Positions 2,769 to 23,614 of a stretch of 36,673 nt of DNA are shown here, piece by piece (positions within the stretch are counted from its first letter, which is position 1; every line of letters begins with the position of its first letter). Made by a program: the position numbers and the translations under genes. Source of the DNA: a virus; IMG/VR virus record IMGVR_UViG_3300009152_000102, positions 1-36,673 of that record; one strand, 5' to 3'. Under the pieces are notes generated by a model. That model was not told where the DNA came from and searched no databases. It saw nothing but the letters and a program-made list of their open reading frames with translations.

Positions 2769-2790
2769 TGTAAGAGTGGCCTAGTGTCAA
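2769..2790 (-). promoter_or_regulatory. Start-associated bipartite motif, perfect copy
   Basis: On the minus strand this reads TTGACA, 5 nt, CCA, 8 nt, then the ATG of the fibre gene at 2768. There is no Shine-Dalgarno sequence. The box overlaps the stop codon of the upstream gene. Confidence 0.6.
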
Positions 2791-4340
2791 TCGGCGACAT
2801 ATTGAGCGCCGGAGCCATAAAGGTTTTTAGTGGTGCTTTGCGAGGAGTGTTGTTCGCCGCTGTATGTGGTGCTATATGTGAATGTGCCGACCTTGTTGGC
2901 GTCAACGGAGGTGTAGAGTCCGCCGTTTTTATCTGCTTGGGTTATAAAGTAGACGAGTTGATTGTAGCTTGGCGTGAACTCCTTCTTGTCGTAGGAAATC
3001 TTATCGGTGCGAGACGTCTCTCGCCATCCATACGCCGGCGGGTCGCTGCCTGGGAAGAGAACCTTGGTTTCTGTCCTTGAGTTCACTTCGGTATACTCAT
3101 ACCAAAAAAACTTGCGCGTAAAAACCACAGGGTGACGAGACGCGGCGAAAAGCTTGTATTTTCGCGAGAAGTTAGAGTTATTGCCCGTCGGCGCGCCGTC
3201 TTGGACAACTTCTAGGTAGTTAAAGATTTGACCATACAGGAAAAAATCTGGTGCAAATCCTGGACCGGGGTTTGAGCATACTATCATAGTTTTGTCTTCC
3301 GGCATCAGGTCGTCAGAGGCAGTTTGTTCGTATTTGACTTTGTATCTTGTGCTCGTGCCTCCGAGGCCATCAGGTTCGGTTTTCTTAACGCGCGATGTTT
3401 TAACGATAATTTTCTGCTGCCACAGATTTATGCTGATGCCCCGTTGGTAATAAGCCGTAAAGCCACCAAGGCTTGAGGACATTAGGTCATAACCAGAGGT
3501 AGCCATGATGTCCAAGGTAGCCATCTTCCCGGTCATAAAGTCCCAAGCTCGTGGCTCGTCGTTAGAAGACTGTCCATTGACAGTCTTTTCGTTGAACCGC
3601 TTCAAAAAAGTTGATGGTTCATAAAATTGTGCCGCGTTAGGCGTGGCATAAGTAGCTGCACGTTCAGGGTCGTTGACCCACTTGACTGTGTCGGTCAACT
3701 TGGGGTAGTATTCTTCTGTGTAGTTTCCATACCAATCGCCACCATGTTGCTTGGGGTCTTCTACCCGCTCCTCAAAAGAAATTGGAATATGCTGCCGCTT
3801 CACCTCCCCAGAGATAGGGTCTGGGTTGTTGAAATCCAAGGCGTTGTTCCAGCCGTTATCCTCCTCAAGTGTGCCCAGCGATAACCACGCCCTGATGGAG
3901 TGACTTTGATTGCGACACACCTCTGTCTTTTTGTCGTCGGAGTATGTTTGAAAATCAATATGAAGCCGGTCGCCGATGGCAGCTTCCGCAGTCGATGGGG
4001 TTTGGCCAGTGTGCGAGCTGGTCAGCCAACAGGACGGCGTGTAGTAGAAGCCGTTGTGCCTAACCTTCCAGTCCACCCACGGCCTTGAAGCTTTTAACGA
4101 GTAGTCGATGGTCTTGACCCACTCCGGGTAGTAGTGGTCGGACTGCGAATAGATATCTGGCGTGGAAAGAATAGTGACCGTGGCGCCGCTAGTATCCGTG
4201 GTCGTGTAGGACACACAAGTCCATGTGTTGGCCTTGATAATAGCGTATGGGTAATCCCAGCTTGCCGTCTTCCCAAGACCGACCTTGGCGTTCTTGAGGT
4301 ATGTGCCGGCGGCGAGAGCGGGTGGAGGGGGAAGGCTCAT
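2787..4340 (-). CDS. Unknown tail-region protein, 517 aa
   Basis: I do not recognise this protein. It is rich in Tyr, Trp, Thr and Ser, with few hydrophobic helices, as in secreted or virion beta proteins. The ATG at 4340 (MSLPPPPALAAG) is preferred over an upstream TTG because it overlaps the preceding stop as ATGA and has GGAG 9 nt upstream. It lies between the tape measure and the fibre genes, so a tail-tip or baseplate role is a positional inference. It could also be an accessory virion protein. No signal peptide or catalytic motif is seen. Confidence 0.7.
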   Translation of the reverse strand: MSLPPPPALAAGTYLKNAKVGLGKTASWDYPYAIIKANTWTCVSYTTTDTSGATVTILSTPDIYSQSDHYYPEWVKTIDYSLKASRPWVDWKVRHNGFYYTPSCWLTSSHTGQTPSTAEAAIGDRLHIDFQTYSDDKKTEVCRNQSHSIRAWLSLGTLEEDNGWNNALDFNNPDPISGEVKRQHIPISFEERVEDPKQHGGDWYGNYTEEYYPKLTDTVKWVNDPERAATYATPNAAQFYEPSTFLKRFNEKTVNGQSSNDEPRAWDFMTGKMATLDIMATSGYDLMSSSLGGFTAYYQRGISINLWQQKIIVKTSRVKKTEPDGLGGTSTRYKVKYEQTASDDLMPEDKTMIVCSNPGPGFAPDFFLYGQIFNYLEVVQDGAPTGNNSNFSRKYKLFAASRHPVVFTRKFFWYEYTEVNSRTETKVLFPGSDPPAYGWRETSRTDKISYDKKEFTPSYNQLVYFITQADKNGGLYTSVDANKVGTFTYSTTYSGEQHSSQSTTKNLYGSGAQYVAD

Positions 4341-5539
4341 GCGCCCCAACTCCAATAAGCCCCTGCGGCACCCATCTTGAACCTATTGACTAGCTTGTTG
4401 CCGGTCGAAAGCTGCGTCACAATGTAGCTTGCGCCCACCACGGCCACAGAGGCGATTTGATAGTAGCCAACCGTTTCGGTGTCCTCCGGGACGGCATTTC
4501 CAGCGATGAAAACCACCTCAATGTTGCGCGGAAACCACTTTTTGGCTTCGTGCGTCGCTTTAAGGTAAATGCGACCCTGACCGGTTATGGTCAAAAGCGG
4601 AGTCGGCAGCTCGTCGATATATTTCGATTCAATTTTTGGAACGATTAGGTTCACCGTCCCTGGGTGAATGGCGACTTTCCAAACCGAGCCAACTTTTGTA
4701 ACCGAAACGTCAAAAGGTTTCAATGGCGGTGACACATGGAAGATGTCCGAGCTGACGCCTTGGAAGAGCTGGTAATTCTTCGTCACCGTCGCAATAGGAT
4801 ACACAAACTGCTTTATGTCATACATCCCTGGGTATTCCACTCCGTTAATCGTCGCTTTCAGAGGCGGGGCGTGCTTGAAGATTGGCACTATCCTGCCCTT
4901 CATCGTCAGGCTGTATGCGTTCCATTGGGTCGCTGCGGCGTTAGCGGCGGCAAGCTGAACAGAACCGCCCGTTTGAGGATAGGGAGGCTGCATCTGGCGT
5001 CCATTCCAAGCTGCCAACTCGATGTAAAACAGACCCTTCTTACGCTTGGTTCGCAGTCCATCCGTGGACACATAGAGCTGCTTGTTCGAGATGACGTTGC
5101 AGTCTGGGTCCTCGAATAAGATTTCGCACCCACCCATGTAGAATAGGTCTTTTATATTTGCTGACTGGAACGTGGGACCTCCGGGTTCATAAGTTTGGAA
5201 GAGCCAAGCGTTGCGGCTACCGTTAAGGTAATCATCTGCGCCTGAAACAATATTCACGCCACCGCCGCCAACCCTATTGGCAAAGAACTGACCAACGTCT
5301 ATGTAGATTTGCGTCCCATTGAAGGACATCTTCCAAGGATGACCAGGGATTGGGCGCTTTGAAGAAACCTGAAACGTGCCGGTCGGGGTGTTCTGAACAT
5401 TCGAGCCAGCTCCAATCGAGGGGCTGAGCTTATTCACCCTGTCCGAAAGCTTGTTGATAACCGACGGCGTCAGGGCATCGCCTGGACCCACCTTTGGTAG
5501 GCCAAGATTATTATTACCGGGCGAGCGGGCGTTTGACAT
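4337..5539 (-). CDS. Unknown tail-tip region protein, 400 aa
   Basis: The N-terminal 45 residues are polar and contain a short amphipathic stretch (SVINKLSDRVNKLSP) that could act as a trimerisation or attachment segment. The rest looks beta-rich, with many Gly, Val and aromatic residues. The ATG at 5539 directly abuts the stop of the upstream gene (5540-5542), and its own stop overlaps the next start as ATGA, so it belongs to a coupled tail gene string. Family membership is not recognised; a structural role at the tail tip is inferred from position only. Confidence 0.7.
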   Translation of the reverse strand: MSNARSPGNNNLGLPKVGPGDALTPSVINKLSDRVNKLSPSIGAGSNVQNTPTGTFQVSSKRPIPGHPWKMSFNGTQIYIDVGQFFANRVGGGGVNIVSGADDYLNGSRNAWLFQTYEPGGPTFQSANIKDLFYMGGCEILFEDPDCNVISNKQLYVSTDGLRTKRKKGLFYIELAAWNGRQMQPPYPQTGGSVQLAAANAAATQWNAYSLTMKGRIVPIFKHAPPLKATINGVEYPGMYDIKQFVYPIATVTKNYQLFQGVSSDIFHVSPPLKPFDVSVTKVGSVWKVAIHPGTVNLIVPKIESKYIDELPTPLLTITGQGRIYLKATHEAKKWFPRNIEVVFIAGNAVPEDTETVGYYQIASVAVVGASYIVTQLSTGNKLVNRFKMGAAGAYWSWGA

Positions 5540-6376
5540 TTAGAACGTCCAAGTTGCGTTAATTTTGTAGTCGCCGCCAATAGAATATGTCGGGACTTTT
5601 TTGCCACCCGAACCAAAGGCGCGGTAAAGATAAGGTGTCCACTTGTGACCCTGCTCCGACATCATCCATTCCGAGGAAATCTTGTAAATAGTGCCGTAAG
5701 TCGTAACCGAAGCTGACGTCAGTAGGAAGTTCCCCCCGGTCGGCATGGGTCCGTTGGCCAAGTATGGCTTGTCGTCGATAGTCCCAATGTTGGTCAGCAT
5801 CTTCTGTGCCGTAGCCGCCGAGGCTGTGTAGAAGCTCACACGAATGGTTGCCCTTGGGGCATAGTAGGACTCCACCCCTCGCAGACCTTCAGGGGCCTTG
5901 ACCGCATCGAAGCGCTCAAAGTTGATGCCGTCTTCGTTCTGCGTTCGGACGAAGGGGTAGTATTGGAAGTTCTCGCCCTGAGCGTCAGGCTTCACCGCCA
6001 TAGCGAGGACTTGGAAGTTTGGGTGCAGGGGGATTGGGTTGCCAGAGGTCGTTCCCGACGTCTCCGTCTCTGCGTAGGTCGGGTCTTGGGTCAATCCGAT
6101 GTAAGAGGCTTGGACGACCACAGAACCCGCTGAAGACATCGTGGAGCTCGATTTGTAGCACTTCAGCCGGCTATCAAAGGGATGCCCCTGACCTCGGTTC
6201 GGAAAGCCTGGGGGCTTTGGGAAATCGGGGTTGGATGTGTATTGTATGCTTAGGTCCCCCTCAAGTAGCCCTCTGCCATCTTCCGTTACCTGCCAACCAG
6301 GCTTGATGACATTGTGAACCTGACCAATAAGGTGCAGGCCGAGTTCGCCTCCGGGTGATGCAGCAGGATTACTCAT
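5540..6376 (-). CDS. Unknown minor tail protein candidate, 278 aa
   Basis: This is the first gene after the tape measure, the place where siphoviruses usually encode distal tail or minor tail proteins. The sequence is mixed polar and beta-prone, with no transmembrane segment and no recognisable motif. The start at 6376 is preceded by a variant of the start-associated motif: TGGACA, 5 nt, CCA, 9 nt, ATG. A distal tail function is therefore only a positional inference. It could equally be a hub or chaperone-like protein. Confidence 0.65.
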   Translation of the reverse strand: MSNPAASPGGELGLHLIGQVHNVIKPGWQVTEDGRGLLEGDLSIQYTSNPDFPKPPGFPNRGQGHPFDSRLKCYKSSSTMSSAGSVVVQASYIGLTQDPTYAETETSGTTSGNPIPLHPNFQVLAMAVKPDAQGENFQYYPFVRTQNEDGINFERFDAVKAPEGLRGVESYYAPRATIRVSFYTASAATAQKMLTNIGTIDDKPYLANGPMPTGGNFLLTSASVTTYGTIYKISSEWMMSEQGHKWTPYLYRAFGSGGKKVPTYSIGGDYKINATWTF

Positions 6377-6399
6377 GTGTGCTTATGGTTCTCTGTCCA
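6377..6399 (-). promoter_or_regulatory. Start-associated motif, variant (TGGACA)
   Basis: TGGACA, 5 nt, CCA, 9 nt, ATG (6376) on the minus strand. It differs from the perfect copies by one base in the first box and one base in the second spacer. Confidence 0.4.
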
Positions 6400-6405
6400 C
6401 ACGCT

Positions 6406-9713: not shown

Positions 9714-9719
9714 GTCCGG

Positions 9720-10151: not shown

Positions 10152-10173
10152 GATGAATGTGGACGATTGTCAA
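10152..10173 (-). promoter_or_regulatory. Start-associated bipartite motif, perfect copy
   Basis: TTGACA, ATCGT, CCA, 8 nt, ATG on the minus strand. The two boxes form an imperfect dyad, TTGAC against GTCCA. No Shine-Dalgarno sequence is present. Confidence 0.6.
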
Positions 10174-10179
10174 CCGAGC

Positions 10180-10623: not shown

Positions 10624-11540
10624 GGTCTTGGTCTGCCTCGGTTACGCTTGTTGGGTGGGGGCTTCACCTTTGCCACCATGTCCACCAGCTCTTTGGTTTT
10701 CCGGATAAAGGTGGAGTTGGTTTCTTGGATGACCTTGTCGATGGCCTCGTCTGCCATTCCATTAGGGTTCCCATAAGCGTTGGTCAGGACATACCTTATG
10801 CCATCGGCATCCCGCTTGATGTCTACCGTCCCCAAACCCTTTCCTGGCATCAGGGCACTGATTTGGCCGCCGAGCTTCTTGATACAGTCTACCCAGCCGT
10901 TGGCACTGCGACCTATGTCCTTCATTTTCTTGGCCAAGTAAGCTTGGATAGCTGCTCGATTACGAACAGCGGTCTTGGTCTTGCCGTCCCACCGGCCGTT
11001 TCGCATCGACGATTGGTGGACCTCTTCGTTCGGCGTTTCGATGTAGTTCACCGTGTCTGCCGCCACTTCGTTAAAGTTGGTCTTCTCAAGGTTCAGGTAG
11101 TCCGACTCGCCGGAGTCGGTTCCCAGCGATTGGAACGCCATGAATAGGATGTCCATGTCTTGAGCTTGCCAAGCTCTTTCGAGGTCTGGGTCTTGCCACT
11201 GTATCGGGTTGTCGATTTGGAAGACGGCGCGGTTACGCATCCCCACGAGGTCCCTGACCGAATGGTTGCCGATGGGGTAGAACATCGAGTTGATGTCCTT
11301 GGTCAGGTTGTATTGCCCCTGCTCATAGGCCGCAGGCGTGCCTGAGTCCCCTTTGAGGGGGTCGTTGCCCGGAGCAGGGAAAGAGTGCCTGTAAAGCGAC
11401 GTAGCCTGCTCTAACGCCACCTCTGCCATCATCTTCTCATAGCCAGCCTTCCAAGCTGCAGCCTGCAACTTGCATAGGTAATGGACCTGCATGCCGTCCC
11501 CACGCAGCGTGACGCCCAAACCTGGCTGATTTGTGCTCAT
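10620..11540 (-). CDS. Unknown neck or minor tail protein, 306 aa
   Basis: A mixed alpha/beta protein of 306 residues with a strongly basic, proline-containing C-terminus (KPPPNKRNRGRPRP), which suggests contact with nucleic acid or with an acidic partner. It is flanked by ATGA overlaps on both sides, inside the string running from head completion to tail terminator. That position corresponds to neck or minor tail genes in lambda-like phages. I do not recognise the family, and no catalytic motif is visible. Confidence 0.6.
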   Translation of the reverse strand: MSTNQPGLGVTLRGDGMQVHYLCKLQAAAWKAGYEKMMAEVALEQATSLYRHSFPAPGNDPLKGDSGTPAAYEQGQYNLTKDINSMFYPIGNHSVRDLVGMRNRAVFQIDNPIQWQDPDLERAWQAQDMDILFMAFQSLGTDSGESDYLNLEKTNFNEVAADTVNYIETPNEEVHQSSMRNGRWDGKTKTAVRNRAAIQAYLAKKMKDIGRSANGWVDCIKKLGGQISALMPGKGLGTVDIKRDADGIRYVLTNAYGNPNGMADEAIDKVIQETNSTFIRKTKELVDMVAKVKPPPNKRNRGRPRP

Positions 11541-11863: not shown

Positions 11864-11883
11864 TCGCTATGGGGCGGTGTCAA
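11864..11883 (-). promoter_or_regulatory. Start-associated motif, shortened variant
   Basis: TTGACA, 5 nt, CCA, 6 nt, ATG (11863). The second spacer is 2 nt shorter than in perfect copies. Confidence 0.45.
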
Positions 11884-12336: not shown

Positions 12337-12356
12337 TTGCCCTTGGTGTATGTCCA
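12337..12356 (-). promoter_or_regulatory. Start-associated motif, variant (TGGACA)
   Basis: TGGACA, 4 nt, CCA, 7 nt, ATG (12336). A separate TTGACA lies just upstream at 12369-12374, directly after the terminator. Confidence 0.4.
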
Positions 12357-12375
12357 CCCCTACTAATTTGTCAAC

Positions 12376-12405
12376 AAAAAAGGACATCCGTTAAGATGCC
12401 CCTTT
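12376..12405 (-). terminator. Intrinsic terminator after the 71-aa gene
   Basis: On the minus strand AAAGGGGCATC (12405-12395) pairs with GATGTCCTTT after a 6-nt loop. All 11 positions pair, including two G-U pairs, and the stem runs into a T-tract. It separates the head accessory genes from the connector/tail genes. Confidence 0.75.
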
Positions 12406-12424
12406 GCGAACCAGCAGTCTCTCC

Positions 12425-12819: not shown

Positions 12820-13194
12820 TTACATGTTGACGGCCGTGGGGCCATCAGCGTCGATGTTGAGCGTGACGCCTTCAATGCTGTTGCCCTTGCGTTTCTTTGG
12901 CGCGGGGGCAGAAATAGTGTTGTTCGCCGCAAGAGACTGAAGCGGGTTATTTGGCATGTCGGGAGACTTTGCTAGGCCGTTCTCATCACGCTCGCCGCGA
13001 GTAGCCGCTACCTGTTCGGTAGACTTATTACGGCGGTCAGCAAGAGGATGCTGGAAGAAGTATGCTTCTTTTCCGGTGTCGCGCAGGCGAACAAAATGTT
13101 CACCCGCAAGGTTGGCTTCTGCTTTGATGTAAGCGGTAGCGATGGGCTTACCGTCCTTCCCAACTTCGACGACGATAGAAAACTTTTGGCTCAT
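12820..13194 (-). CDS. Head accessory protein with shared small domain (E)
   Basis: This protein has 124 residues. Residues 4-52 carry the domain that recurs in four other genes of this region: a short beta strand (KFSIVVEVGKDG), a helix with an Ala pair, and a closing strand plus Pro (AYFFQHPLADR). Residues 60-124 are low-complexity and contain a basic patch (APKKRKG). The family is not recognised. Location between the capsid gene and connector genes suggests a capsid decoration or head fibre component. The upstream leader holds a 15-nt palindrome rather than the standard start motif. Confidence 0.65.
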   Translation of the reverse strand: MSQKFSIVVEVGKDGKPIATAYIKAEANLAGEHFVRLRDTGKEAYFFQHPLADRRNKSTEQVAATRGERDENGLAKSPDMPNNPLQSLAANNTISAPAPKKRKGNSIEGVTLNIDADGPTAVNM

Positions 13195-13238: not shown

Positions 13239-13502
13239 TTAGTCGATTTCGCCACCATTCACACCACTCGTAAAAATGCGAGTGACGCCAAAGGCATCGA
13301 CATATGTTCCGCCCACCTTCGTAGGCTTTAGCTCCTTGGTCGGGATGGCTTCAAGGTAAAGGTAGCAAGGACCACCAGCACCATCCTGCTGAATGAAGTC
13401 CGCTTGGGCGGCTTCGGCAGAGGTGTAAGCGTAGACATGCTGGTCTACGGTGCCAGCGTTAGTGACCAGGAACGAAATAGAGTTGGGACCAGAGAGGCTC
13501 AT
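13239..13502 (-). CDS. Head accessory protein with shared small domain (D)
   Basis: In this 87-residue protein nearly the whole N-terminal half matches the shared domain: NSISFLVTNAGTVDQHVYAY, then a helix with AEAAQADF, then the strand CYLYLEAIPTKE. The C-terminal part has GGTYVDAFGVTRIF, a segment echoed in the neighbouring gene C (TDAYGVVRQV). Duplication of this unit is therefore older than the split of C and D. It starts 16 nt after a TTGACA box. A virion decoration role is inferred from position. Confidence 0.65.
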   Translation of the reverse strand: MSLSGPNSISFLVTNAGTVDQHVYAYTSAEAAQADFIQQDGAGGPCYLYLEAIPTKELKPTKVGGTYVDAFGVTRIFTSGVNGGEID

Positions 13503-13524
13503 TGTGCCCTTGGACGACTGTCAA
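13503..13524 (-). promoter_or_regulatory. Start-associated bipartite motif, perfect copy
   Basis: TTGACA, GTCGT, CCA, 8 nt, ATG (13502). The TAG stop of the 38-residue gene directly abuts the box. Confidence 0.6.
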
Positions 13525-13641
13525 CTACTTCCAGAAGGGCTTGTTAGGCTTCACCTCAACGTTGCCAATCTTAATGGGTGCGGACGGCTTCGGCGGGACA
13601 ACCGGAGCGGGCGGAGGCGTGGGCTGGTTCTCGTTGCTCAT
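13525..13641 (-). CDS. Proline-rich micro-protein, 38 aa
   Basis: A 38-codon frame starts at the ATG at 13641, which overlaps the stop of the upstream gene as TAATG, and ends with TAG at 13525-13527, touching the next regulatory box. The sequence begins MSNENQPTPPPAPVVPPK and ends with the basic PNKPFWK. The tight fit between coupled start and regulatory box argues for a real gene. The function is unknown. Pro-rich tails of this kind often act as flexible linkers or short binding ligands. Confidence 0.5.
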   Translation of the reverse strand: MSNENQPTPPPAPVVPPKPSAPIKIGNVEVKPNKPFWK

Positions 13642-14009
13642 TAGTCGATGATGTCGCAGTTACCAACCTGACGGACAACTCCGTAGGCATCCGTGAACCA
13701 AGTCGGGGAGGGGGTAACAAGATTACCTTCAGCATCGTGGTAAGCCTTGGTGATATTATCATAGCCGCCTTCGCCGTCAGAGACTTGGAAGGTGCCACCC
13801 ACGCTGGGTTGCTTACCATAGTCTTTATCCCAAACCGGCTGCCACATTCCTTGGAAGTGGTATCCATACTCACGGGCGGCCACGAAGTCGGCTTCGTAAA
13901 GAGCACGCTCGTCAGCTCCGTAGTAGACGGCGGTCCTCTTCAGACCATCTGCGGTAGCAAAGATGGCCACAGAGAAGGGACCTTTAAAAGAGTTATATGG
14001 CGAAGGCAT
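13641..14009 (-). CDS. Head accessory protein with shared small domain (C)
   Basis: A protein of 122 residues starting MPSPYNSFKGPF at the ATG at 14009; a TTG 15 nt upstream is rejected because it lies inside the TTGACA box. Residues 8-60 align with the shared domain (FSVAIFATADG, then a helix with ALYEADF, then QPVWD), here with a longer closing loop. The C-terminus (TDAYGVVRQV) resembles protein D. The start sits 16 nt after a perfect motif. Its stop overlaps the 38-residue gene. A decoration or fibre-associated function is an inference. Confidence 0.65.
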   Translation of the reverse strand: MPSPYNSFKGPFSVAIFATADGLKRTAVYYGADERALYEADFVAAREYGYHFQGMWQPVWDKDYGKQPSVGGTFQVSDGEGGYDNITKAYHDAEGNLVTPSPTWFTDAYGVVRQVGNCDIID

Positions 14010-14031
14010 ATCGGTTGTGGACAATTGTCAA
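14010..14031 (-). promoter_or_regulatory. Start-associated bipartite motif, perfect copy
   Basis: TTGACA, ATTGT, CCA, 8 nt, ATG (14009). TTGACAATTGTCCA is the most symmetrical copy. The box contains the TGA stop of the GNAT-like gene. Confidence 0.6.
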
Positions 14032-14399: not shown

Positions 14400-16891
14400 T
14401 AAGCGTATGCTCCGCCCATGCCATCTGTGTAGTAATTCCAGCCGTTGCACTCACCAAGGTAGCTGCCGGAGCTGTTGTAGGACGGTGTGTCGTAGTTCTT
14501 ATACGTCCCACAGTTTCCGTCGGTGTATTCCTGCCAGTTAACAGAACCGACATACCAATCGCCACAGCCAACATTAGTGTAAATGCTGTCCATGCTGCTG
14601 TTTACAAAGTTGCCGGATTGGTCGCAGGGCGGAGGGTTGCAGCTTCCGTTGTCAGATGTGTAGGTGCCACAGCTGCCATCAGCGTAAATGTTTTGGCAAT
14701 AGTTGTTGGGGTCTACGCCGTAATCAGTTCCAGACGAGTCACAGGTCGGACCATCACACGAACCATTAGAAGAAGTGTATGTTCCGCATATGCCATCGGC
14801 ATACACGTCGTAGCAAGGGTCAGCGCTTACGCCGAGGTTAGTGCCGGAAGGCGTGCAATCCCAATATGGGTCGTAAGACCAATAGCATCCGTCATACGAC
14901 CAGCCTTGTTGACCGTTTGTGTGTAAAGCAGAGTCCTCGCAATTGGGACCATCACACGAACCGTTGGAATTAGAGTATGTGCCACACATACCATCGGCAT
15001 AAATGTTGTTACAATTGTCCATTGGGTCAACGCCAAGGTCTGTGCCTGAAGAAGGGCAGGGCGGGGGTGTGACGGGTTCAGAAGTGTAACTGCCTGCGCC
15101 ATCAGCGTAGTAATAGTAAGACGCATCAGAGCCGAGAAGTGTTCCTGAAGTAGTGTAATTCCAGGGTGTCCACTCGCCCACGCCGCCGGAGGCGTATTGC
15201 GGACGGACTCTTGTTCCGCTTAACACACTCGCTCCTGTTGGAATAGTGATGTAAGCTTCTTCACCTTCGTAGCCCGAAATAATCGGCTCGCTTGTAACAG
15301 TCCCAGAGCTGTCCACGGAATAAGTGTTACCGTTGCAGGTCCCGATGACCCCAGTATTGTAGGACGAGCCAACTGTGGTGTCGTAAAAGGAACAGTTGCC
15401 GTCAGCATAGACATTGTAAGTCAGCGTGCCAATCTCCCACTCACCGCAACCCGCATCATAAGTAATCGGCTCGGTGGCGTTCTCGTTAACCAGGGTGTCT
15501 GCCGGGTCGCAATCTGTCGGCGGGATGGCAATCGCATAGTAGCTGCCTGTTCCGTTGGTGTAATAATGGTTGTCGAAATCTGACTCAAGTAGGATGTTAG
15601 CCGCGTCGTAATCATAGACCCAAGGACTTTGATGCGTCCCGCCCGGAGGGACTCCCGTCGTATCAACGCCATTGGGGTCGCCCGCCCCGTCGCGCGAAAC
15701 CGTGCCAGCCCAGCCTTCAGGAGGTCGAGCATCCGCTGGCGTGTCCCCCGAAGGCGTAAAGTTAAAGGTCAGCGTCGTTGGGCTTGCCATTGTGACATCC
15801 CAATAACCAGTGCCAAGGCCTGCTTCTTCGTCCCAAGTAATGTTTACTGGGCCGTTCGGAGATGGCGTATTGAAGCCAGACCTGTAAATATTGGCAGTTC
15901 TGCTACCAACTAGATGGCTGTTTCCTGTCTCCGTGACCACTACGCTAACAGGTTCATTCAATGTTTCCAACAGTTCAGAATTGTCGTCATTCGTCGGTTT
16001 CAGCGGGAAGAGGACCGGAACGCCCATCGCGGCGTTGTTAAAACTAGTGTCAAAGACCGGCTCGCCGGCGACGTATTCACGGAGGGCATTTACTTCAAGC
16101 TCCACATCACTAAGGTTAATGTCTCGTGGTAAGACGCCTGCTTCTACTTTAACCACGTTCGCAACACCCCCTGCGTATTGGGCAAGCTCTCGTTCAGCTC
16201 GCATCAGGGCAAATCGGCTTATCGGCACAACCGTGGAGCCGCCGACAGTCCCAAAGATAAGCTCCCTGACATCAAGGGCGCTGAAAGAGATGTATTCCCT
16301 GAAGCCATTAGGATACTGACAGGGTGCATACCACTTTTGGAATACACCTTCAGGCGGAGTCCAAGGGTCAGTTTCTGGCGGTGCTTCAAACGTGCCACCC
16401 ATACCATCTGCAAGCTTTATCGTTGGTCGTGAACTAGGCCACAGCGTCCCATCTGTGCTTCGTTCAGTAGCGTTGTCCGGCTGGCAAACCAACACTTCTG
16501 TTCCAAACTTGGGCTTACCCGGAATAGAACACTCCCTGTGCGTAGGATGCAAGGTGCAATAACCAATCCACTGCTGGTAATCATAATAACTGTCGTCAAA
16601 AGGACTTCCCGCAGTCGTTGGACGAGGAAGCCGCGGAGTCGTTGGCCATTCAAACTCACCAACGTTTTGCTGGGGGGTAAAGACAACAGGAGTCTTTGCC
16701 GGCGCCTCAATAGGCGCTGAACCCGCACCGATGGACTTCATTGGCTGGGGGTAAAGATACACCGCCTTGCCCGTAGCGCTCTCTGCCGCGTAAGCTGCCT
16801 TGGCTTCCTGCCAAGTGTCAAACTGCTTCACGACTCCGCTGCCATCCGAGTTCAGGATGAACAGAGCATAGTGCTTTGGCTTCGTAGGCAT
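14399..16891 (-). CDS. Large Cys-rich repeat protein, likely head fibre
   Basis: This 830-residue protein has three parts. Residues 1-55 are the shared small domain (KHYALFILNSDGSG to AVYLYPQPMKS). The middle is a beta-rich region. The C-terminal 230 residues contain three near-identical units of about 37 residues with the pattern SGTDLGVDP, C, YADGxCGTY, NGSC, C, plus looser YADG or YTDG copies to the end. The regular cysteines may form disulphides or bind metal. The ATG at 16891 overlaps the upstream stop as TAATG. A capsid-anchored fibre is proposed because its N-domain is shared with small neighbours, with the repeats as the exposed stalk or tip. No enzymatic motif is visible. Confidence 0.7.
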   Translation of the reverse strand: MPTKPKHYALFILNSDGSGVVKQFDTWQEAKAAYAAESATGKAVYLYPQPMKSIGAGSAPIEAPAKTPVVFTPQQNVGEFEWPTTPRLPRPTTAGSPFDDSYYDYQQWIGYCTLHPTHRECSIPGKPKFGTEVLVCQPDNATERSTDGTLWPSSRPTIKLADGMGGTFEAPPETDPWTPPEGVFQKWYAPCQYPNGFREYISFSALDVRELIFGTVGGSTVVPISRFALMRAERELAQYAGGVANVVKVEAGVLPRDINLSDVELEVNALREYVAGEPVFDTSFNNAAMGVPVLFPLKPTNDDNSELLETLNEPVSVVVTETGNSHLVGSRTANIYRSGFNTPSPNGPVNITWDEEAGLGTGYWDVTMASPTTLTFNFTPSGDTPADARPPEGWAGTVSRDGAGDPNGVDTTGVPPGGTHQSPWVYDYDAANILLESDFDNHYYTNGTGSYYAIAIPPTDCDPADTLVNENATEPITYDAGCGEWEIGTLTYNVYADGNCSFYDTTVGSSYNTGVIGTCNGNTYSVDSSGTVTSEPIISGYEGEEAYITIPTGASVLSGTRVRPQYASGGVGEWTPWNYTTSGTLLGSDASYYYYADGAGSYTSEPVTPPPCPSSGTDLGVDPMDNCNNIYADGMCGTYSNSNGSCDGPNCEDSALHTNGQQGWSYDGCYWSYDPYWDCTPSGTNLGVSADPCYDVYADGICGTYTSSNGSCDGPTCDSSGTDYGVDPNNYCQNIYADGSCGTYTSDNGSCNPPPCDQSGNFVNSSMDSIYTNVGCGDWYVGSVNWQEYTDGNCGTYKNYDTPSYNSSGSYLGECNGWNYYTDGMGGAYA
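14637..15062 (-). repeat. Tandem YADG/Cys repeats inside the fibre-like gene
   Basis: Three in-frame coding repeats lie at about 14637-14746, 14751-14862 and 14952-15062. Each encodes the order SGT(D/N), GV, C, YADGxCGTY, NGSC. The last two are separated by an unrelated Trp/Tyr-rich insert. Confidence 0.7.
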
Positions 16892-17091
16892 TAGTCGGTA
16901 ATCTCGATGGGAGCTGGGTCTTCCAATGTGGTCTTACGCTTCATCGGCCGGGCATAAAAGTATGCCGTGTAGCCGGCGGCAAGCGCCTCCCGGTAGTCTT
17001 CCTTTGCTTGGGTAGCGTTGGCATACTGCGTGATGGTCAATTCATCGCCATCATCCACAATGACGGCAGCATATTTTGGAGCTCGAACCAT
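16891..17091 (-). CDS. Head accessory protein with shared small domain (A)
   Basis: This 66-residue protein is almost exactly one copy of the shared domain: PKYAAVIVDDGDEL, then a helix with ATQAKEDYREAL, then AYFYARPMKRK. It is the closest match to the N-terminus of the 830-residue protein it is coupled to. The ATG at 17091 is preferred to a start 30 nt upstream, because the upstream segment lies over the TTGACA box and the terminator spacer. As a free-standing copy next to the capsid gene it is a candidate decoration protein. Confidence 0.65.
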   Translation of the reverse strand: MVRAPKYAAVIVDDGDELTITQYANATQAKEDYREALAAGYTAYFYARPMKRKTTLEDPAPIEITD

Positions 17092-17111
17092 ACGCCTTGT
17101 GGCATTGTCAA
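17092..17111 (-). promoter_or_regulatory. Start-associated motif, shortened variant
   Basis: TTGACA, 3 nt, CCA, 8 nt, ATG (17091). The first spacer is 2 nt shorter than usual. It lies 9 nt after the T-tract of the capsid terminator. Confidence 0.45.
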
Positions 17112-17119
17112 CAAAGCAC

Positions 17120-17144
17120 AAAAAAGCCCCCGATTAAGGGGGCT
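17120..17144 (-). terminator. Intrinsic terminator after the major capsid gene
   Basis: On the minus strand AGCCCCC pairs with GGGGGCT over a 6-nt loop and is followed by six T. It is a strong canonical hairpin 22 nt after the capsid stop, so capsid mRNA can be made in excess of the downstream genes. Confidence 0.9.
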
Positions 17145-17166
17145 GTTTGTTCGACTACCGCTCCAA

Positions 17167-18081
17167 TTAGGAGGCGATAATCTTGGCGAGGCAGTTCGGG
17201 TTACCGATGGACACGCCGTAGAGGATGGACATCGAGAGCTTCTGCTCGCCGGTGTCGCCATCATACCACTCACGAACCTGGATGGAGAGGCCGGACTCAG
17301 CGTCGGTAGCGACAGCCACGTTACCATACCAATTGGTCGGGGTAGCAGGCAGACGAGCCGCGATGAGGATAGCTTCTGGCGAGACAGCGATACCTTTGAG
17401 GTTGGTGACCGAAGCAGGGAGAGCAGTGTACTGGTTCACCTCGAAGCCGTGGATACGGGGGAGGAGATTTTCAGTCAGAGGAGCGTTAGTGCCCGAAGCA
17501 TACTGCGCCTGGATGCTGTTATCCTTGGCGAGGGATGTGTAGAGGGAGGGACGAACGATGAGCGTGCGGCCAGCCATAGGCACGTTGGCATCGGTCAGAG
17601 CCTGCGAGATGTCGGCGACAGCGTCAGCGTCAAAAGCTGCAACAGTGCCGGTGTAGCCGGTCTGCGTGAAGGTGCCAGTGCCGGTGAGGGCAACGAGGCC
17701 GAAGACATCATCCATAACCGCTTTGACGACAGCGTGAGCAGCCGGGCGGATGAATGTGCGACGTAGGACGTCGTAGCCACCCTTGGCGACTTCGCCATCA
17801 GAGAAGCCCATCACGAAACCCTTGTGCTTGTCGAGGGTGACGGTCTTGGCGTTCGACTTGACGTCGGAGCGGACATAACCGTTCGCACCAATGTCCGTAG
17901 CAGCCATACCTTCAGCGATACGAGTCGTAACGGACTCACCGCGCTGGAGGATGTCGCCACCGAAGTCGGTAGTGAACTTGTTAACGAGAGGAAACTGCGC
18001 GAGCAGTGTGGTGAGGGAGTCTTGGGCAATAACCTGGAGGTTAATACCACCAAGATTACCAGAGGGATTACCGGTAGACAT
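17167..18081 (-). CDS. Major capsid protein, HK97-fold
   Basis: This protein of 304 residues is encoded after protease and scaffold genes and directly before a strong terminator, as expected for the most abundant virion protein. An N-terminal helical segment (IAQDSLTTLLAQFPLVNKF) is followed by beta-rich sequence, a long spine-type helix (IRPAAHAVVKAVMDDVFGL) near residues 110-130, and C-terminal strands. This agrees with HK97-type coat proteins of the shorter kind. Its leader is A-rich with no Shine-Dalgarno sequence; a TTGACA lies 45 nt upstream. N-terminal processing by the S49 protease is possible but no site can be named. Confidence 0.85.
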   Translation of the reverse strand: MSTGNPSGNLGGINLQVIAQDSLTTLLAQFPLVNKFTTDFGGDILQRGESVTTRIAEGMAATDIGANGYVRSDVKSNAKTVTLDKHKGFVMGFSDGEVAKGGYDVLRRTFIRPAAHAVVKAVMDDVFGLVALTGTGTFTQTGYTGTVAAFDADAVADISQALTDANVPMAGRTLIVRPSLYTSLAKDNSIQAQYASGTNAPLTENLLPRIHGFEVNQYTALPASVTNLKGIAVSPEAILIAARLPATPTNWYGNVAVATDAESGLSIQVREWYDGDTGEQKLSMSILYGVSIGNPNCLAKIIAS

Positions 18082-18134
18082 AATGTTTTATTTTTTGGGG
18101 GTTGAAAGGGTTCGAGTGTTGAAGTTTGTCAACT

Positions 18135-18902
18135 TTAAGCTGTTTCCTTGGGCTTGCGCTCTAGGCCAGCAGCTGTCTTTCCAGCAGCGTCATCGCCTGC
18201 GCGGTAGACTGTGCCGGTTTCAGCAAAGGCCTGATTGACGGCCTGAATGGTCGTGCGGTTGTAGCCAGCCTTCGACATATCAGCGTCAAGACGCTTGGCG
18301 AGGGGCGAACCAGCAGGAATACGGATAACGCCGTCCTTACCCATCAGACGATAGGCAGCAGCACGGATTTCCTTGTTCGGAATAGCCTTCGGGTTGATAG
18401 AGAAACCATTGAGGTTACCCTGCTTGTCGAAACGAGCACCACGGAGGGAAGGGGGAAGGGTGACGCTAACCACGCCGTCCTTTTGGTTCTTGGTCACGTC
18501 CACACGGGTGCGGGCGATGACATAGTTAATCTTGCCAACCTGGACGGACTGAACGCCGCTGGGACCGACAGTAACAGTAGCGTTCGGGGCCTGTGTCACA
18601 TCGCCGTTAGGCTTAATGACCGAGACGCCTTCACCACCAAAGCGACCATTCTGAACGAGGATAGTGCCGTCTTCAGCCTGGGCTACGCCACGAGGGGTAG
18701 TAGCAAGAGCGTCAGCGAGCTTTTCGCCCGACACCTTGATGTCACCGCCACCAGCGTTCTGCGTGCGACCAATGGCTTCTGTGACGTCGCCACCGCTTGC
18801 AACAGCGCGGTTAGCGGCATTGACTTCGGAGTCACGACGGACACCGCCTGTGCCACCGGCATAACCGGTAGCGTATGTTCCATAAGAGTTTGAGCCAGGC
18901 AT
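18135..18902 (-). CDS. Unknown head-region protein, 255 aa
   Basis: The first 60 residues are Gly/Ser/Ala-rich and probably disordered (YATGYAGGTGGVRR). The middle is beta-prone, with regular Val/Gly turns, and the C-terminal 80 residues are helical and basic. It lies between the scaffold-like gene and the capsid gene, where phages often place decoration or minor head proteins. The family is not recognised. Expression together with scaffold and capsid is suggested by short gaps and the absence of a terminator. Confidence 0.6.
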   Translation of the reverse strand: MPGSNSYGTYATGYAGGTGGVRRDSEVNAANRAVASGGDVTEAIGRTQNAGGGDIKVSGEKLADALATTPRGVAQAEDGTILVQNGRFGGEGVSVIKPNGDVTQAPNATVTVGPSGVQSVQVGKINYVIARTRVDVTKNQKDGVVSVTLPPSLRGARFDKQGNLNGFSINPKAIPNKEIRAAAYRLMGKDGVIRIPAGSPLAKRLDADMSKAGYNRTTIQAVNQAFAETGTVYRAGDDAAGKTAAGLERKPKETA

Positions 18903-18926
18903 TTTAGTATGTTATTTAGGTGTGGA

Positions 18927-20582
18927 TTAAGAGCGGCGAGCCTTCAGGTTGACCTGGGCGGCGCGAGAGATAGCAGATGCGTTAGCCTTGAAGTAGCGGT
19001 TCTGTTCACGCTTGTCGGCGATAGCCTCGAAAGCGGCGAGGATTTCGGCATCCGTCTTAGGACCGTTTTCACCCTGCATGTCAGCACCAACCGGTTCGTG
19101 GGCGGTAGCACCAACAATCTTCGCAGCCTTGGCTTCGAGAGTGTTATCGGTGGCTTCGGCCTTGGAGAGCTTGCTCATCAGGGCTTCAAACTTGGCTTGG
19201 AGCTGGGCGACAGCCGTGTAGGCTTCGTCCTTGGCTTTGGTTTCGGAGGCGAGGGTAACACCCTGCTCGGCGAGCTGGGTTTCAACGGCCTTCTTGGCCT
19301 TGGCGACAGAAGCGAGGCGTTCCACAGCGACATCCACAACGGAGTCGAGGGAGGCGGCAGCGAGAGGGGCGAGGTCACCGACCGGAGTCGTGTTGCCGGT
19401 CGTCGGGGCGCAACCTTCTTCGTGAACCTTGGTGGTTTCAGGAGACTCGGACTTCTTGCCCTTCTTGGCGTCCTTCTTTTCTAGGGTAGACTCTTCGCCG
19501 TCCTGGTCTTCGGTGCCAGTAACGTCCTTCTTGTTCATACCGGGGAGGGAGTTGGCAGCCTTCTTAGCCTTGGCAGCTTTTTCTTCGTCCACAATCTGTT
19601 GGAGGTATTCCATCAGAGCGGCAGGGATTTCTTCAGAGGTGTCGTTGCTCTTCTTGGCAGCGATGGCTTCAAGAGCGACTTCGTAAGCCTTCTTGGCACC
19701 CTTGCCAGGCTTCGATAGGGTCGTCTCGTGTTCATGTTCTTCGCCTTCGTTCTTCTGAACGTCCGGGGACTCCATGATTTCTTCAACGTCGGTTTCGCCC
19801 TTCTTAGAGGCCTTGGCGGCGAGCTTCTTGTTAAGCGTAGGATGAGTGGTGTTGTCCTCATTGACGTTGTTCTTGTTCGGGTCAAGACCCGGCTGAGGGA
19901 TGATGTCGCCGAAATCCTTCTTCTCTTCCTTGAGGGGAGACTTGAGGTTCGAGTCGGCCTTTGTCGCCTTGGCTTTGCAAGCCTGGCGGTATTCCTTGAG
20001 CATTTCGAGCTCGTCTTCGGTCAGACCTTCGGACTCTTCGTCGCAATAGGTGGCCTTGGCCGCCTTGGCCTTACCCTTGCCCTTCATCGGGCCACAGGCT
20101 TCGTCTTCGGACTCTTCGTCCTTATCTTCAATCTTGTCCTTGATGAACTGAGGCATTTCAGCCTTCTTGCCCTTCTTGCCGGCATCCTGATGCTGCTTTT
20201 CGGCAGGGGTGTCACCTTCTTCGCCGTCTTCAATCTTCTGCTTCACGTATTCGTTGAGGTCGGCCTTCTTGGCGGCTTCCTTCTCAACCTTGGTGGCATA
20301 GGCCATCGCAGCGTCGGCTTTGGCAGAAAGTTCCTTCATCGCTTTGGCGGTCAGTTCGCGCTCGGCGAGCAGTTCGCCCAGCTTGGCGATAACCAGGGGG
20401 TCAACAGCGACCGGCTCGGAAGCCTTAGGAGCAGAGAGCGAGGACTCGATTTCGGCGAGGCGCTTGGAGATGGTATCCTTCTCCAGAGCGAGGGCCGAAA
20501 CCTGTTCGGAGAGGGCGAGGGTCTGCTTAGAAGCCTCGATGGCCTCTTTGAGCTGCTGTTCAACGGACTTGGTATTGCTCAT
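18927..20582 (-). CDS. Scaffold-like protein, highly charged
   Basis: This 551-residue protein is extraordinarily rich in Lys, Glu and Ala. The N-terminal 110 residues form a predicted coiled coil. A long acidic and Lys-rich disordered middle follows, with a loose repeat (EYVKQKIEDGEEGD and QFIKDKIEDKDEESED). The C-terminal 120 residues are helical and end in basic KARRS. Position between protease and capsid, helix content and the basic C-terminal tail all match capsid scaffolding proteins. It is longer than usual, and the linker contains a few Cys (DEACGP, TYCDEE). It could be cleaved by the neighbouring S49 protease. Confidence 0.7.
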   Translation of the reverse strand: MSNTKSVEQQLKEAIEASKQTLALSEQVSALALEKDTISKRLAEIESSLSAPKASEPVAVDPLVIAKLGELLAERELTAKAMKELSAKADAAMAYATKVEKEAAKKADLNEYVKQKIEDGEEGDTPAEKQHQDAGKKGKKAEMPQFIKDKIEDKDEESEDEACGPMKGKGKAKAAKATYCDEESEGLTEDELEMLKEYRQACKAKATKADSNLKSPLKEEKKDFGDIIPQPGLDPNKNNVNEDNTTHPTLNKKLAAKASKKGETDVEEIMESPDVQKNEGEEHEHETTLSKPGKGAKKAYEVALEAIAAKKSNDTSEEIPAALMEYLQQIVDEEKAAKAKKAANSLPGMNKKDVTGTEDQDGEESTLEKKDAKKGKKSESPETTKVHEEGCAPTTGNTTPVGDLAPLAAASLDSVVDVAVERLASVAKAKKAVETQLAEQGVTLASETKAKDEAYTAVAQLQAKFEALMSKLSKAEATDNTLEAKAAKIVGATAHEPVGADMQGENGPKTDAEILAAFEAIADKREQNRYFKANASAISRAAQVNLKARRS

Positions 20583-20612
20583 AATGAGTGTGATGTTAGT
20601 GTTTTGAAATTG

Positions 20613-21614
20613 TCAACCTCCATAGGGCTGGATACCCTCGTATGAAGTGGGCTGCGTCTGATGATACATCGTGGGGAGCGTGGTTCGCTGTGCGAGCCGG
20701 CGCGTTGCCTTGATGTCATCAATAAGTGCCTCGAAATTGTCTACCACACCAGTCGTAAGACCTCGTGCGGCGGCCTTGTCGCCATAGAACGACTGACCCT
20801 GTAGGTCGTCATCGGAGGCGTAGAGACGGACGGACTTAACGTCCCGGCGGAAACGGCCATGCAGCTCGTCCACCTCGTCTTGTAGGGAGTTAATTTGGTC
20901 AGGTGTAAGGGAGGTGCCCTCCACGCCAGCCGCTTTATACTTCCCAGATTTTATGACCACGACCTCTTTACCTTCCTTCTCAAACTTCTTGCGCTCGTCG
21001 GTCATCGTGATGTAGACGCCGCAAGCTCCTACACTGGCAGAGGGGGTGCAGACAAATCGTTTGCACTGTGATGCCATCCAGTAAGCTGCGCTTCCGCAGT
21101 CGCTATCCGAGAAGGCGATGGTCGGTTTGGCGTAGTTGCGGATTTGCTTGGCGAGCTCCTCCAGGCCTGTGGTCGAGCCACCGCCGGAGTCCATACGGAG
21201 AACCACCTCAAAGACTGTGTCATTCTCGTCCCAGCTCTTTAGGGTGTTCGCAATCGTGTCGATGTCCGCACAGCCAAGCATAGCCTCTAAGGGGCTAAGG
21301 CACTTGCCGATTACCCCGCGCACAGGGATGACGCCGATGCCGTCACGAATGTAAGGTGTTGATGCTACGGCAAATCCGTTTGCGGCAGCTTCCAGGTCTA
21401 GGTCATCCTCGTCGGCCTGCTTAACAAAACGCTTAGCTCTTGGGCCAACGTCTTTATTTTCAGCCTTTGGCTTCATAAACGCCGACAACGAGTGCGAGAT
21501 GTCCGGGTTGGACAAGAGCATTTCAGCGTTCTTCAGAAACGCCTGAACCTTAATGGGGTCAATAAGGAGGGGTCGTCCAGCCTTCAAGGCGTAAGTTAGG
21601 TCGCTTCTAATCAT
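20613..21614 (-). CDS. S49 (SppA/protease C-like) head maturation protease
   Basis: In this 333-residue protein the S49 signature is visible in order. VLRMDSGGGST stands for the oxyanion DSxGG loop, CGSAAYWMAS provides the nucleophile serine, and SASVGACGVYIT is the following conserved strand. VVVIKSGKYKAAG contains the lysine cluster that includes the general base. Phage versions of this family process scaffold and portal proteins during head assembly, as lambda gpC does. The start overlaps the portal stop as ATGA. The first 80 residues before the catalytic domain are variable and may be a propeptide. The basic and polar C-terminus is not separately translated as far as can be seen. Confidence 0.88.
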   Translation of the reverse strand: MIRSDLTYALKAGRPLLIDPIKVQAFLKNAEMLLSNPDISHSLSAFMKPKAENKDVGPRAKRFVKQADEDDLDLEAAANGFAVASTPYIRDGIGVIPVRGVIGKCLSPLEAMLGCADIDTIANTLKSWDENDTVFEVVLRMDSGGGSTTGLEELAKQIRNYAKPTIAFSDSDCGSAAYWMASQCKRFVCTPSASVGACGVYITMTDERKKFEKEGKEVVVIKSGKYKAAGVEGTSLTPDQINSLQDEVDELHGRFRRDVKSVRLYASDDDLQGQSFYGDKAAARGLTTGVVDNFEALIDDIKATRRLAQRTTLPTMYHQTQPTSYEGIQPYGG

Positions 21615-23347
21615 CGAGAGAAGGGCTGGTCCCGGTTACGAGACAACCCAGGATTTTGTTTTGGCAGAGTGTCAACAGAAGTGTCCATCTGTTCGGCTGG
21701 TTCTGCTGCCGGCGTGCGAGGTGGAGGACGGAGCTCGGGTTCCGTGTTCGTCAGAGCGTCTGTCGGAACATTTGGGTCGGCGCCTGCGCCCGCTATCTGG
21801 TCAATAGGCACAATTGTCGGCTGCCCATCTGGCCCTGGCATCACCACGCCAAGCGCACCTTCAGGAATGGTCGGAGGACCGCCCGGAGCGCCTGCTCCAC
21901 CCGCACCACCCGCAGGAGACTTACGCCACAGCTTGTCTTCTGCCACGCCCGTCTCTTTCGATAGGCGACCAATAAACGAGTGGTCACGCGCAATCTTACG
22001 CATCGTCTTTTCAAAGTTGTAGCCACGAGACTGGAAGTCGTCGGAGGGCGGGATGCGACCCATGTCGAGGTCAGCTCGCTCGTTCGCACCCTCTCTGCCG
22101 GCATCGACAGTCACCGACTTGCAGCACACCCACTCGGTCTTCCACCAATTGCGAGCATTAGGTATCTCCTTGCGGTCAATCTTCAGACCACACCAGAATT
22201 GGAAGTATTCCTGGAGGAAGCGGTTGATAATAATCGTCTGGCGGTGCGTGAAAAATCTGCCCGCCTTCGCCACTACCAATCGAACTGCACTTCCGCCGGC
22301 ACGAGTCGGGTCGGCCACGAACTCATAGGGTAGTCCTCCCAACACAGAGTCACGACGAAGGTGTTCGATAAATCCGGCAAAAGCTGCCGACGGTCTGGCC
22401 GACGCATAAGAGACGAGCGACTCGTTGTTCTGTAAAACGGCGGTCACACCACCAAGCACTCGGTTGAGCGCGTCAGGCGAGGTGTTCTGGGTGGCTGAAT
22501 TGCCCTCTCCAAGGGGTTGCCCAAGACCAAGGTCACCAGAGTCCATCCGTGTGTCCTCGACCTTTAGGATGCGACTCGTGCGGGAGTTGTCCTTGACTGC
22601 GACCTTCTCCATCGAGAGCAAGTCCATCTCGTCACGCATGTGATTGATGGCATGCTGATGAGGCGGGAAAGCTCGGCTCTGCGAGGCGTATTCCGCATCA
22701 AAGATGTGCATCATCGACTCGGCCTTGACCGGCGTGTAGCGACCATCGCTCTGCTTCACAAAGTAGGTCAGCGGTCTGCCCAGCCTGTCAAAACGGATGC
22801 CGTCAAAGACGTCTGGCTGCGCCATCGCATCGGGAGCTGTCTCGACCCGGTGGGCTTCGATGATTTGAAACTTCGGGTTACCCTTTCGGTCCTTGCACTT
22901 GATTATAAAGATTTCGCCGTCTCGGTCCAGGGCCTCACACACAATGAATAGGCTCTCCAGCATCGAAAAGCGCCCAGACACTTCGGGCCTGATGCACTCC
23001 TGCTCCCATTCAGCTTCCACAGTGTTCTGCCATTCGTAGTCCCCACCCAAGCACTGAAGCCCGATGCCCTCGCCCACCGTGTAGATGGCCGTGTCCTTAA
23101 TCATCTGTTTGTATAGGCCGTTATTCTTTTCCAACCAGCGGGACAGGCGTAGCATCTCACGACGAGTCGAGCCCGTCATCTCCATCCGGAAGTCCGTCGG
23201 CTGCGGCGCGTCAATGCGCGTGCGGTGAACGGAGTAGCGTGTGGACTCGAACGCTCCCTGATAAGCTTTCGGCTTCAGGAGGTTGGACAGACCGATACGG
23301 AGCCGGTCAACAAGACCTGGCGTAGGCTTTTTTGGTTCGAGGGGCAT
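21611..23347 (-). CDS. Portal protein, lambda gpB type
   Basis: This 578-residue protein has the features of the lambda-type portal family: RREMLRLSRWLEKNNGLYK near residues 65-85, EALDRDGEIFIIK near 165, and FQIIEAHRVETAPDAM shortly after. The C-terminal 90 residues are Gly/Pro-rich and disordered. It forms the dodecameric ring at one capsid vertex through which DNA is packaged. The neighbours agree: gpW-like gene upstream and S49 protease downstream, with TAATG and ATGA overlaps respectively. A TTGACA within its 3' end (21666-21671) encodes VD and is taken as coincidence. Confidence 0.92.
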   Translation of the reverse strand: MPLEPKKPTPGLVDRLRIGLSNLLKPKAYQGAFESTRYSVHRTRIDAPQPTDFRMEMTGSTRREMLRLSRWLEKNNGLYKQMIKDTAIYTVGEGIGLQCLGGDYEWQNTVEAEWEQECIRPEVSGRFSMLESLFIVCEALDRDGEIFIIKCKDRKGNPKFQIIEAHRVETAPDAMAQPDVFDGIRFDRLGRPLTYFVKQSDGRYTPVKAESMMHIFDAEYASQSRAFPPHQHAINHMRDEMDLLSMEKVAVKDNSRTSRILKVEDTRMDSGDLGLGQPLGEGNSATQNTSPDALNRVLGGVTAVLQNNESLVSYASARPSAAFAGFIEHLRRDSVLGGLPYEFVADPTRAGGSAVRLVVAKAGRFFTHRQTIIINRFLQEYFQFWCGLKIDRKEIPNARNWWKTEWVCCKSVTVDAGREGANERADLDMGRIPPSDDFQSRGYNFEKTMRKIARDHSFIGRLSKETGVAEDKLWRKSPAGGAGGAGAPGGPPTIPEGALGVVMPGPDGQPTIVPIDQIAGAGADPNVPTDALTNTEPELRPPPRTPAAEPAEQMDTSVDTLPKQNPGLSRNRDQPFSR

Positions 23348-23592
23348 TAACGGTCAACAAGTCGGTTGTAGTTCGTGTAGAGGCCACGGACCCTCCCGTC
23401 AAGACGCAGTAACGCATAGTTTGCTTCTTGGAGCATCTGCTGCGGAGGCAGGGCGAAGCTCTTGCTGGCGTTGGTCGAGCCATCGCCGTAAGACATGATT
23501 GTCTTGCCTTCTAGGATAAGCGCCACGGCTTTATCCCGGATGGCTTCAATGGTTTCCTTGGGCAGGCCGACAAATAGTCCGTTGGCTGGCAT
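23347..23592 (-). CDS. gpW-like head-tail joining protein
   Basis: An 81-residue protein in exactly the place of lambda W, before the portal gene. The order is an N-terminal helix (ETIEAIRDKAVALILEGK), then a short strand region with ASKSFALPPQ, then a helix (MLQEANYALLRLDGRV). This agrees with the gpW alpha-beta-alpha layout, although sequence identity is low. The protein seals the portal after packaging. The start at 23592 follows a perfect start-associated motif, and the leader also forms a CGTGC-CAAAA-GCACG hairpin ending right at the ATG. No Shine-Dalgarno sequence is present. Confidence 0.7.
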   Translation of the reverse strand: MPANGLFVGLPKETIEAIRDKAVALILEGKTIMSYGDGSTNASKSFALPPQQMLQEANYALLRLDGRVRGLYTNYNRLVDR

Positions 23593-23614
23593 CGTGCTTT
23601 TGGCACGCTGTCAA
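23593..23614 (-). promoter_or_regulatory. Start-associated bipartite motif, perfect copy, with hairpin
   Basis: TTGACA, GCGTG, CCA, 8 nt, ATG (23592). The N16 segment folds into a 5-bp hairpin with loop CAAAA that abuts the start codon. Confidence 0.6.

Follow-up and report, generated by a model that had tools for sequence, protein, structure and literature searches.

What is the function of a short sequence that recurs, in a single orientation, close to the start codons of an uncultured phage? The stretch of DNA analysed here (hereafter, the window) is IMG/VR virus record IMGVR_UViG_3300009152_000102, which comprises 36,673 bases and carries siphovirus-type structural genes, of which terminase, portal, protease, and capsid were assigned by PHROGs. 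A preliminary description had noted the pattern TTGACA-N5-CCA-N8-ATG before several minus-strand genes, proposing either an operator for a phage regulator or a translation-initiation signal independent of a Shine-Dalgarno (SD) sequence. Judging from sequence patterns in the window and its relatives, we consider that the motif is probably a compact late promoter, with transcription starting 19 nucleotides (nt) after the first T of TTGACA and often giving leaderless mRNA.

All five copies described as exact were found on the minus strand (first T at 2790, 10173, 13524, 14031, and 23614; starts at 2768, 10151, 13502, 14009, and 23592), while the plus strand and a reversed control pattern gave none, and the full pattern was absent from 200 first-order Markov shuffles of the minus strand. 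The core TTGACA-N5-CCA occurred seven times in the window, against 0.2 expected from such shuffles. When up to three mismatches were allowed there was no excess (32 observed, 27.8 expected), and significance therefore rests on the strict form and on the relatives. The four variant copies listed earlier were likewise present, before starts 6376 (TGGACA with CCA), 11863 (N6 in place of N8), 12336 (TGGACA with CAA and N6), and 17091 (TTGACA-N3-CCA or N5-ACA). Further copies, not listed earlier, lie upstream of 18081, 20582, and 29440, within the portal gene (21675), and in the terL-side leader (24010). These features are collected in Table 1.

Relatives were sought by two scans of viral contigs, which gave 18 and 28 loci; gene calling and the search of upstream regions covered 18 records, window included, in which pieces of relatives were used. 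Start positions carry error because they come from our own gene caller, and the null controls (first-order Markov shuffles, letter shuffles, and the reversed pattern) are simple ones. Moreover, the records are mutually related and sites were deduplicated by a short sequence key only, so that p values overstate independence. Within this frame, a mixture model recovered the motif de novo, in the general form gGTTGACA-N5-C[CA]A (CMA for its last element), as the top motif in three non-overlapping record groups, with log-likelihoods of 278–373 versus 44–54 in letter-shuffled controls; the 25 upstream regions of the window alone gave a weaker signal (67.9 versus 39–48 in shuffles). The core was present in 20 of 20 whole records searched, and among 19 further, held-out loci, counting only sites absent from the 18 records, 39 sites were found versus 4 for reversed controls.

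The motif precedes orthologous genes in the relatives, at varying distance; nearly all copies there are on the coding strand, and the reversed control yielded next to none. At a threshold of at least 11 bits, co-directional intergenic DNA held 191 sense and 10 antisense sites, and genes held 104 sense and 23 antisense sites in about ten times more DNA; the element is thus concentrated in intergenic DNA and in the sense direction. The mixture weight puts its share among the 652 uncoupled starts at about 48%. The earlier statement that coupled genes lack the motif mostly holds, as 34 of 376 coupled versus 277 of 652 uncoupled starts have a site of at least 8 bits, and none of 15 orthologues of the coupled portal gene is preceded by one. 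A conserved, start-associated element in one orientation was therefore upheld, and neither of the conditions that the preliminary description named as refuting it, absence before orthologues in close relatives or equal frequency inside genes, applied. The dyad formerly seen in the best copies was not upheld, since the site is asymmetric and, of 109 unique strict cores, only 10 have GT before CMA.

The distance to the start codon proved informative about the 5' end of the message. In what follows, the first T of TTGACA is index 1, CMA occupies 12–14, and d is the distance from CMA to the start codon. The exact N8 spacing turned out to be no rule: among 133 strict upstream sites in the 18 records, d was 5–8 in 64, 13–17 in only 4, and at least 13 in 62, a two-peaked distribution of mostly 5–8 or 18–47 nt. 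Values of 5–8 accounted for 64 of 71 near strict sites and, in the held-out loci, for 15 of 33 sites with a start within 50 nt, while the capsid gene had its motif 28–48 nt upstream in 16 of 16 records. Across 102 unique near sites, the proportion of A at index 20 was 0.71–1.00 at each of d 6, 7, 8, and 9 (43 of 53 sites at d 7–9; 0.71 of 21 at d 6), with a pyrimidine at index 19 in 0.82–0.90 at d 5, 7, 8, and 9. Since A is found at index 20 for each of these distances, it tracks the motif and not the start codon. In the 62 strict sites of the long class, index 20 was a purine in 0.77 and index 19 a pyrimidine in 0.61. Of the held-out sites, 7 of 9 at d 7–9 had A at index 20, and 14 of 16 with d of at least 13 had a purine there.

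Two further features of the long leaders bear on the same position. Four-bp hairpins start at index 20 in 6 of 55 leaders (0.25 expected) and at none of indices 21–30; they comprise five capsid orthologues with two unlike stems and one nested terminator. Furthermore, long leaders contain 9.3% G, compared with 25.6% at the N positions of their own motifs and 16.4% before uncoupled genes without motif. The N positions of the short class have 24.9% G although they lie less than 20 nt from the ATG, so that no G depletion is seen upstream of the start codon there. The window's capsid gene, whose motif stands at 37 nt, shows such a G-poor leader from the predicted +1. Together, the anchored dinucleotide, the stems at index 20, and the G-poor long leaders place a 5' end at position 20, where we infer that it arises by transcription.

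Two classes of element can be told apart in these genomes, namely sigma-70-like promoters of the type TTGAC[AT]-N16/17-CATAAC (class I), whose -10 ends 6–9 nt before the start codon in 32 of 95 cases (14 of 61 under a stricter definition), and TTGACA-N5-CMA without a -10 (class II). TTGAC is common to both. Before structural genes, class II outnumbers class I by 97 to 19, and elsewhere the numbers are 50 and 56 (odds ratio 5.7); 11 starts carry both classes and 419 neither. As the preliminary description had argued, the motif is not itself a sigma-70 promoter: at near sites the place of the -10, 16–18 nt after TTGACA, falls on or inside the start codon, a spacing that excludes ordinary sigma-70 use, and a -10-like match was present in only 10 of 168 such sites.

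In the copy within the portal gene, the codons are GTT in 14 of 14 valine rows, GAC in 13 of 13 aspartate rows, and CCA in 14 of 16, compared with average main-codon shares in that gene of 0.51 for valine, 0.73 for aspartate, and 0.53 for proline columns. As judged from this codon usage, the portal-internal copy is under nucleotide-level selection. Because the overlapping protease gene starts 47 nt downstream of it, this copy also speaks against a purely translational signal.

Taken as a promoter used mainly for structural (late) genes, the motif would have TTGACA at -19 to -14 and CMA at -8 to -6, and the first transcribed base would be the A (or G) in the pyrimidine-purine step found 5 nt past CMA. 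A message whose start codon stands 5–8 nt after CMA would then be practically leaderless, with 0 to 3 nt ahead of the codon, and one whose start codon stands at 13–47 nt would have a short G-poor leader. Both recognition elements would lie within 20 bp of the start, and the reader may, more tentatively, be an undescribed phage polymerase, or a host RNA polymerase redirected by a new specificity factor, that makes leaderless late mRNAs. A possible factor of this kind is p255, a 255-residue helix-turn-helix (HTH) protein encoded directly upstream of terS, whose HTH segment is invariant across 13 aligned sequences. Searches with p255 gave no match in Pfam, NCBIfam, or PDB sequences and none among named phages; comparison with an Escherichia coli sigma region 4 profile was not significant (probability 0.2, E 0.33). 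Structure models were of low confidence (mean predicted local distance difference test scores of 51.5 and 63.0), Foldseek gave no match at E ≤0.001, and the best Z among 379 chains was 4.8, the matches being weak and HTH-generic. On this evidence p255 is only a candidate for the motif's regulator.

Several results weigh against a compact promoter. PF00940 (the single-subunit RNA polymerase that a T7-like promoter would call for) was not detected in any of 14 records, with control genomes equally silent; a Pfam scan of 85 of 119 called genes of one relative, leaving out most structural proteins and the smallest, gave no polymerase or sigma family; and no DxDGD-type polymerase site occurred in called proteins. 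Promoters confined to the 20 bp or so next to the start are known only for phage RNA polymerases of the single-chain or non-canonical kind. The pyrimidine-A step comes one base earlier at sites with d 6, no more than 8 of the 16 held-out long sites have a pyrimidine at index 19, and the hairpins come from few lineages, five of the six being capsid orthologues. Class I promoters, analysed in the same way, showed no clear start dinucleotide, which means that the method is not calibrated on ordinary promoters. Predicted terminators were found in 119 co-directional gaps of 20–400 nt, 58 of which also have the motif; the motif follows the terminator in 42, an order that favours a promoter, overlaps it in 1, and, contrary to that order, precedes it in 15, mostly from one homologous family. 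Terminators and motif are modestly associated (p = 0.09 over all gaps; p = 0.009 where the gap is at least 35 nt). In the family with the motif first, the stem begins right after CMA, and a transcript from position 20 would lose part of it. Finally, a GTTCTTT element in the leader between terL and the head genes, which we take to be boxA-like, points to one or more additional late promoters subject to antitermination.

Even so, a transcription start fits the data better than a dyad operator or an SD-independent translation signal. The latter, acting within the mRNA, would account for the many genes in which CMA stands, like an SD, 5–8 nt ahead of the start codon, for the rarity of strict SD-like matches (3% both at the 126 near and at the 143 long motif starts), and for coupled genes mostly being without the motif. 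The reading is weakened because the start distance is two-peaked and the capsid copies lie far upstream; moreover, the protease motif lies inside portal in most records, and the conserved A keeps its place relative to the motif, whatever the position of the ATG, so that we regard a translation signal as improbable. Pyrimidine-A steps are prone to cleavage, and a motif directing the cut of long late mRNAs at this step would give leaderless messages with the same 5' end features. The boxA-like late leader and a protein with a KOW-motif match that misses the Pfam cut-off (E 0.005) hint at such a long antiterminated transcript. Terminators directly upstream of the motif speak against processing, as does the family in which the cut would land inside the terminator stem, and we hold it to be improbable, slightly more so than a translation signal.

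An operator or stoperator would be an asymmetric one-way site at which a phage repressor or regulator (perhaps p255) binds and so stops or slows transcription at the borders of genes, a role known from cluster A mycobacteriophages. The many copies of an asymmetric 14-bp site, in one orientation and in short intergenic gaps, are stoperator-like as far as stoperators are characterised in PMC9283540 and PMC6550527; the TTGAC shared with sigma-70-like promoters and the invariant HTH segment of p255 also agree with it. This reading leaves unexplained the 5–8 nt start distance, the pyrimidine-A step 5 nt after CMA, and leaders that are G-poor only past the motif, and the Pfam scan of the 85 genes returned no integrase or CI-like repressor; we consider an operator unlikely.

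Comparison with described systems places the motif near several of them. The accounts of cluster A stoperators and operators likewise present 13–14 bp asymmetric sites, in short intergenic gaps and oriented with transcription (PMC9283540, PMC6550527); our motif differs in its link with start codons and with a pyrimidine-A step resembling a start. The start-associated sequence (SAS) of cluster K mycobacteriophages is, as outlined in PMC3203893, likewise an asymmetric repeat of constant orientation that sits a few nt ahead of start codons and is kept before orthologues. SAS differs in reading GGGATAGGAGCCC with an SD core and in lying in the non-structural half of the genome, whereas the present motif is without SD, precedes mainly structural genes, and also stands 13–47 nt from starts; the short distance typical of SAS (3–7 bp) thus does not extend to the 62 of 133 strict sites noted above. 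A parallel in the way of working is the AR9 late promoter, AACA-N6-TA/G, described as compact and with its last base as the mapped start (PMC5312081), although its sequence is another and it is read by a multisubunit phage polymerase; no such enzyme was found here. The position of p255 recalls the late transcriptional regulators RinA and Ltr, whose genes PMC13123087 describes as immediately preceding terS or the late promoter. Regulators of that class activate a late promoter by binding repeats; of p255, the position and an HTH segment were seen, and its sequence matched no known family.

Because the short distance of SAS fails, no immunity repressor like that of stoperators was identified among the proteins scanned, and no polymerase of the AR9 kind was found, we file the element as a phage start-associated regulatory motif, most likely a compact late promoter. 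Searches of open-licence papers showed no description of the motif.

Table 1. Motif copies and associated features, with window coordinates; predicted +1 is index 20.
Feature	Position	Strand	Predicted +1	Start codon	Orthologues with motif	Remarks
TTGACA-N5-CCA	2777..2790	-	2771	2768	7/7	Tail gene
Variant TGGACA-N5-CCA	6386..6399	-	6380	6376	4/8	
TTGACA-N5-CCA	10160..10173	-	10154	10151	5/11	At 14–19 nt in orthologues
TTGACA-N5-CCA	11870..11883	-	11864	11863	10/14	
Variant TGGACA-N5-CAA	12343..12356	-	12337	12336		
TTGACA-N5-CCA	13511..13524	-	13505	13502	5/5	
TTGACA-N5-CCA	14018..14031	-	14012	14009	1/1	
Variant TTGACA-N5-ACA (or N3-CCA)	17098..17111	-	17092	17091	6/6	
Intrinsic terminator hairpin, then T run	17125..17144	-				Directly upstream of 17111 copy
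TTGACA-N5-CAA	18119..18132	-	18113	18081	15/15	Major capsid gene
TTGACA copy, weak third element	20603..20616	-	20597	20582	7/7	20 nt distance; third element AAA in that register
Copy in 3' end of portal gene	21662..21675	-		21614	13/15	47 nt before protease start
TTGACA-N5-CCA	23601..23614	-	23595	23592	15/15	81-residue head gene
boxA-like GTTCTTTTGAAAAC	23961..23974	-				Shortly after 23997-24010 element; GTTCTTT conserved in relatives
TTGACA-N5-CAA	23997..24010	-				Non-coding, upstream of head genes; CMA not kept in relatives, class uncertain
p255, HTH protein	28673..29440	-				Directly upstream of terS; candidate regulator
Variant GTGACA-N5-CAA	29452..29465	-		29440	4/6	Before 255-residue HTH gene
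Sigma-70-like promoter TTGACG-N17-CACAAC	36131..36159	+				Contrast, class I type; before 36171 gene

Some neighbouring features deserve mention. Between terL and the head genes, about 2.4 kb (23592-26005, minus strand) are mostly non-coding and include a tRNA-Ser; the GTTCTTT element stands about 40 nt after the TTGACA box in this stretch and is conserved in relatives, and the whole is perhaps an antiterminated late leader. The weak KOW motif mentioned above belongs to a 188-residue protein (32696-33262), possibly NusG-like. After the capsid gene, several small proteins appear by eye to share one repeated domain (12820-13194, 13239-13502, 13641-14009, 16891-17091, and the N-terminus of an 830-residue protein), and clustering groups the proteins starting at 13502 and 17091 together. 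Genes whose products begin with MARG also bear the motif in relatives (L019, 12277 and 12843; L014, 6332), and the gene at window start 12336 looks alike. An Rfam search returned nothing at gathering scores.

By capsid and portal, the nearest named relative is phage P8625 of a Puniceicoccales strain, and the phage group perhaps infects Verrucomicrobiota; nothing in the phage collection was close in DNA to bases 1-24000 of the window, and a host search of genome contigs with the capsid protein and a capsid profile gave no match. P8625 has two TTGACA-N5-CCA copies, only one of them shortly before an annotated start. Its genome also holds repeated dyads of the GTATCC/GGATAC type that overlap TTGACA-N17-TATTGG promoters and are followed within a few nt by start codons (e.g., 5412-5448 and 10736-10772).

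If the motif is indeed a compact late promoter, these phages would follow a two-class programme, in which sigma-70-like promoters serve genes away from the structural ones and the compact element stands before structural genes, with leaderless messages arising from both promoter classes. It would also point to a new polymerase or specificity factor in a sizeable group of uncultured phages.

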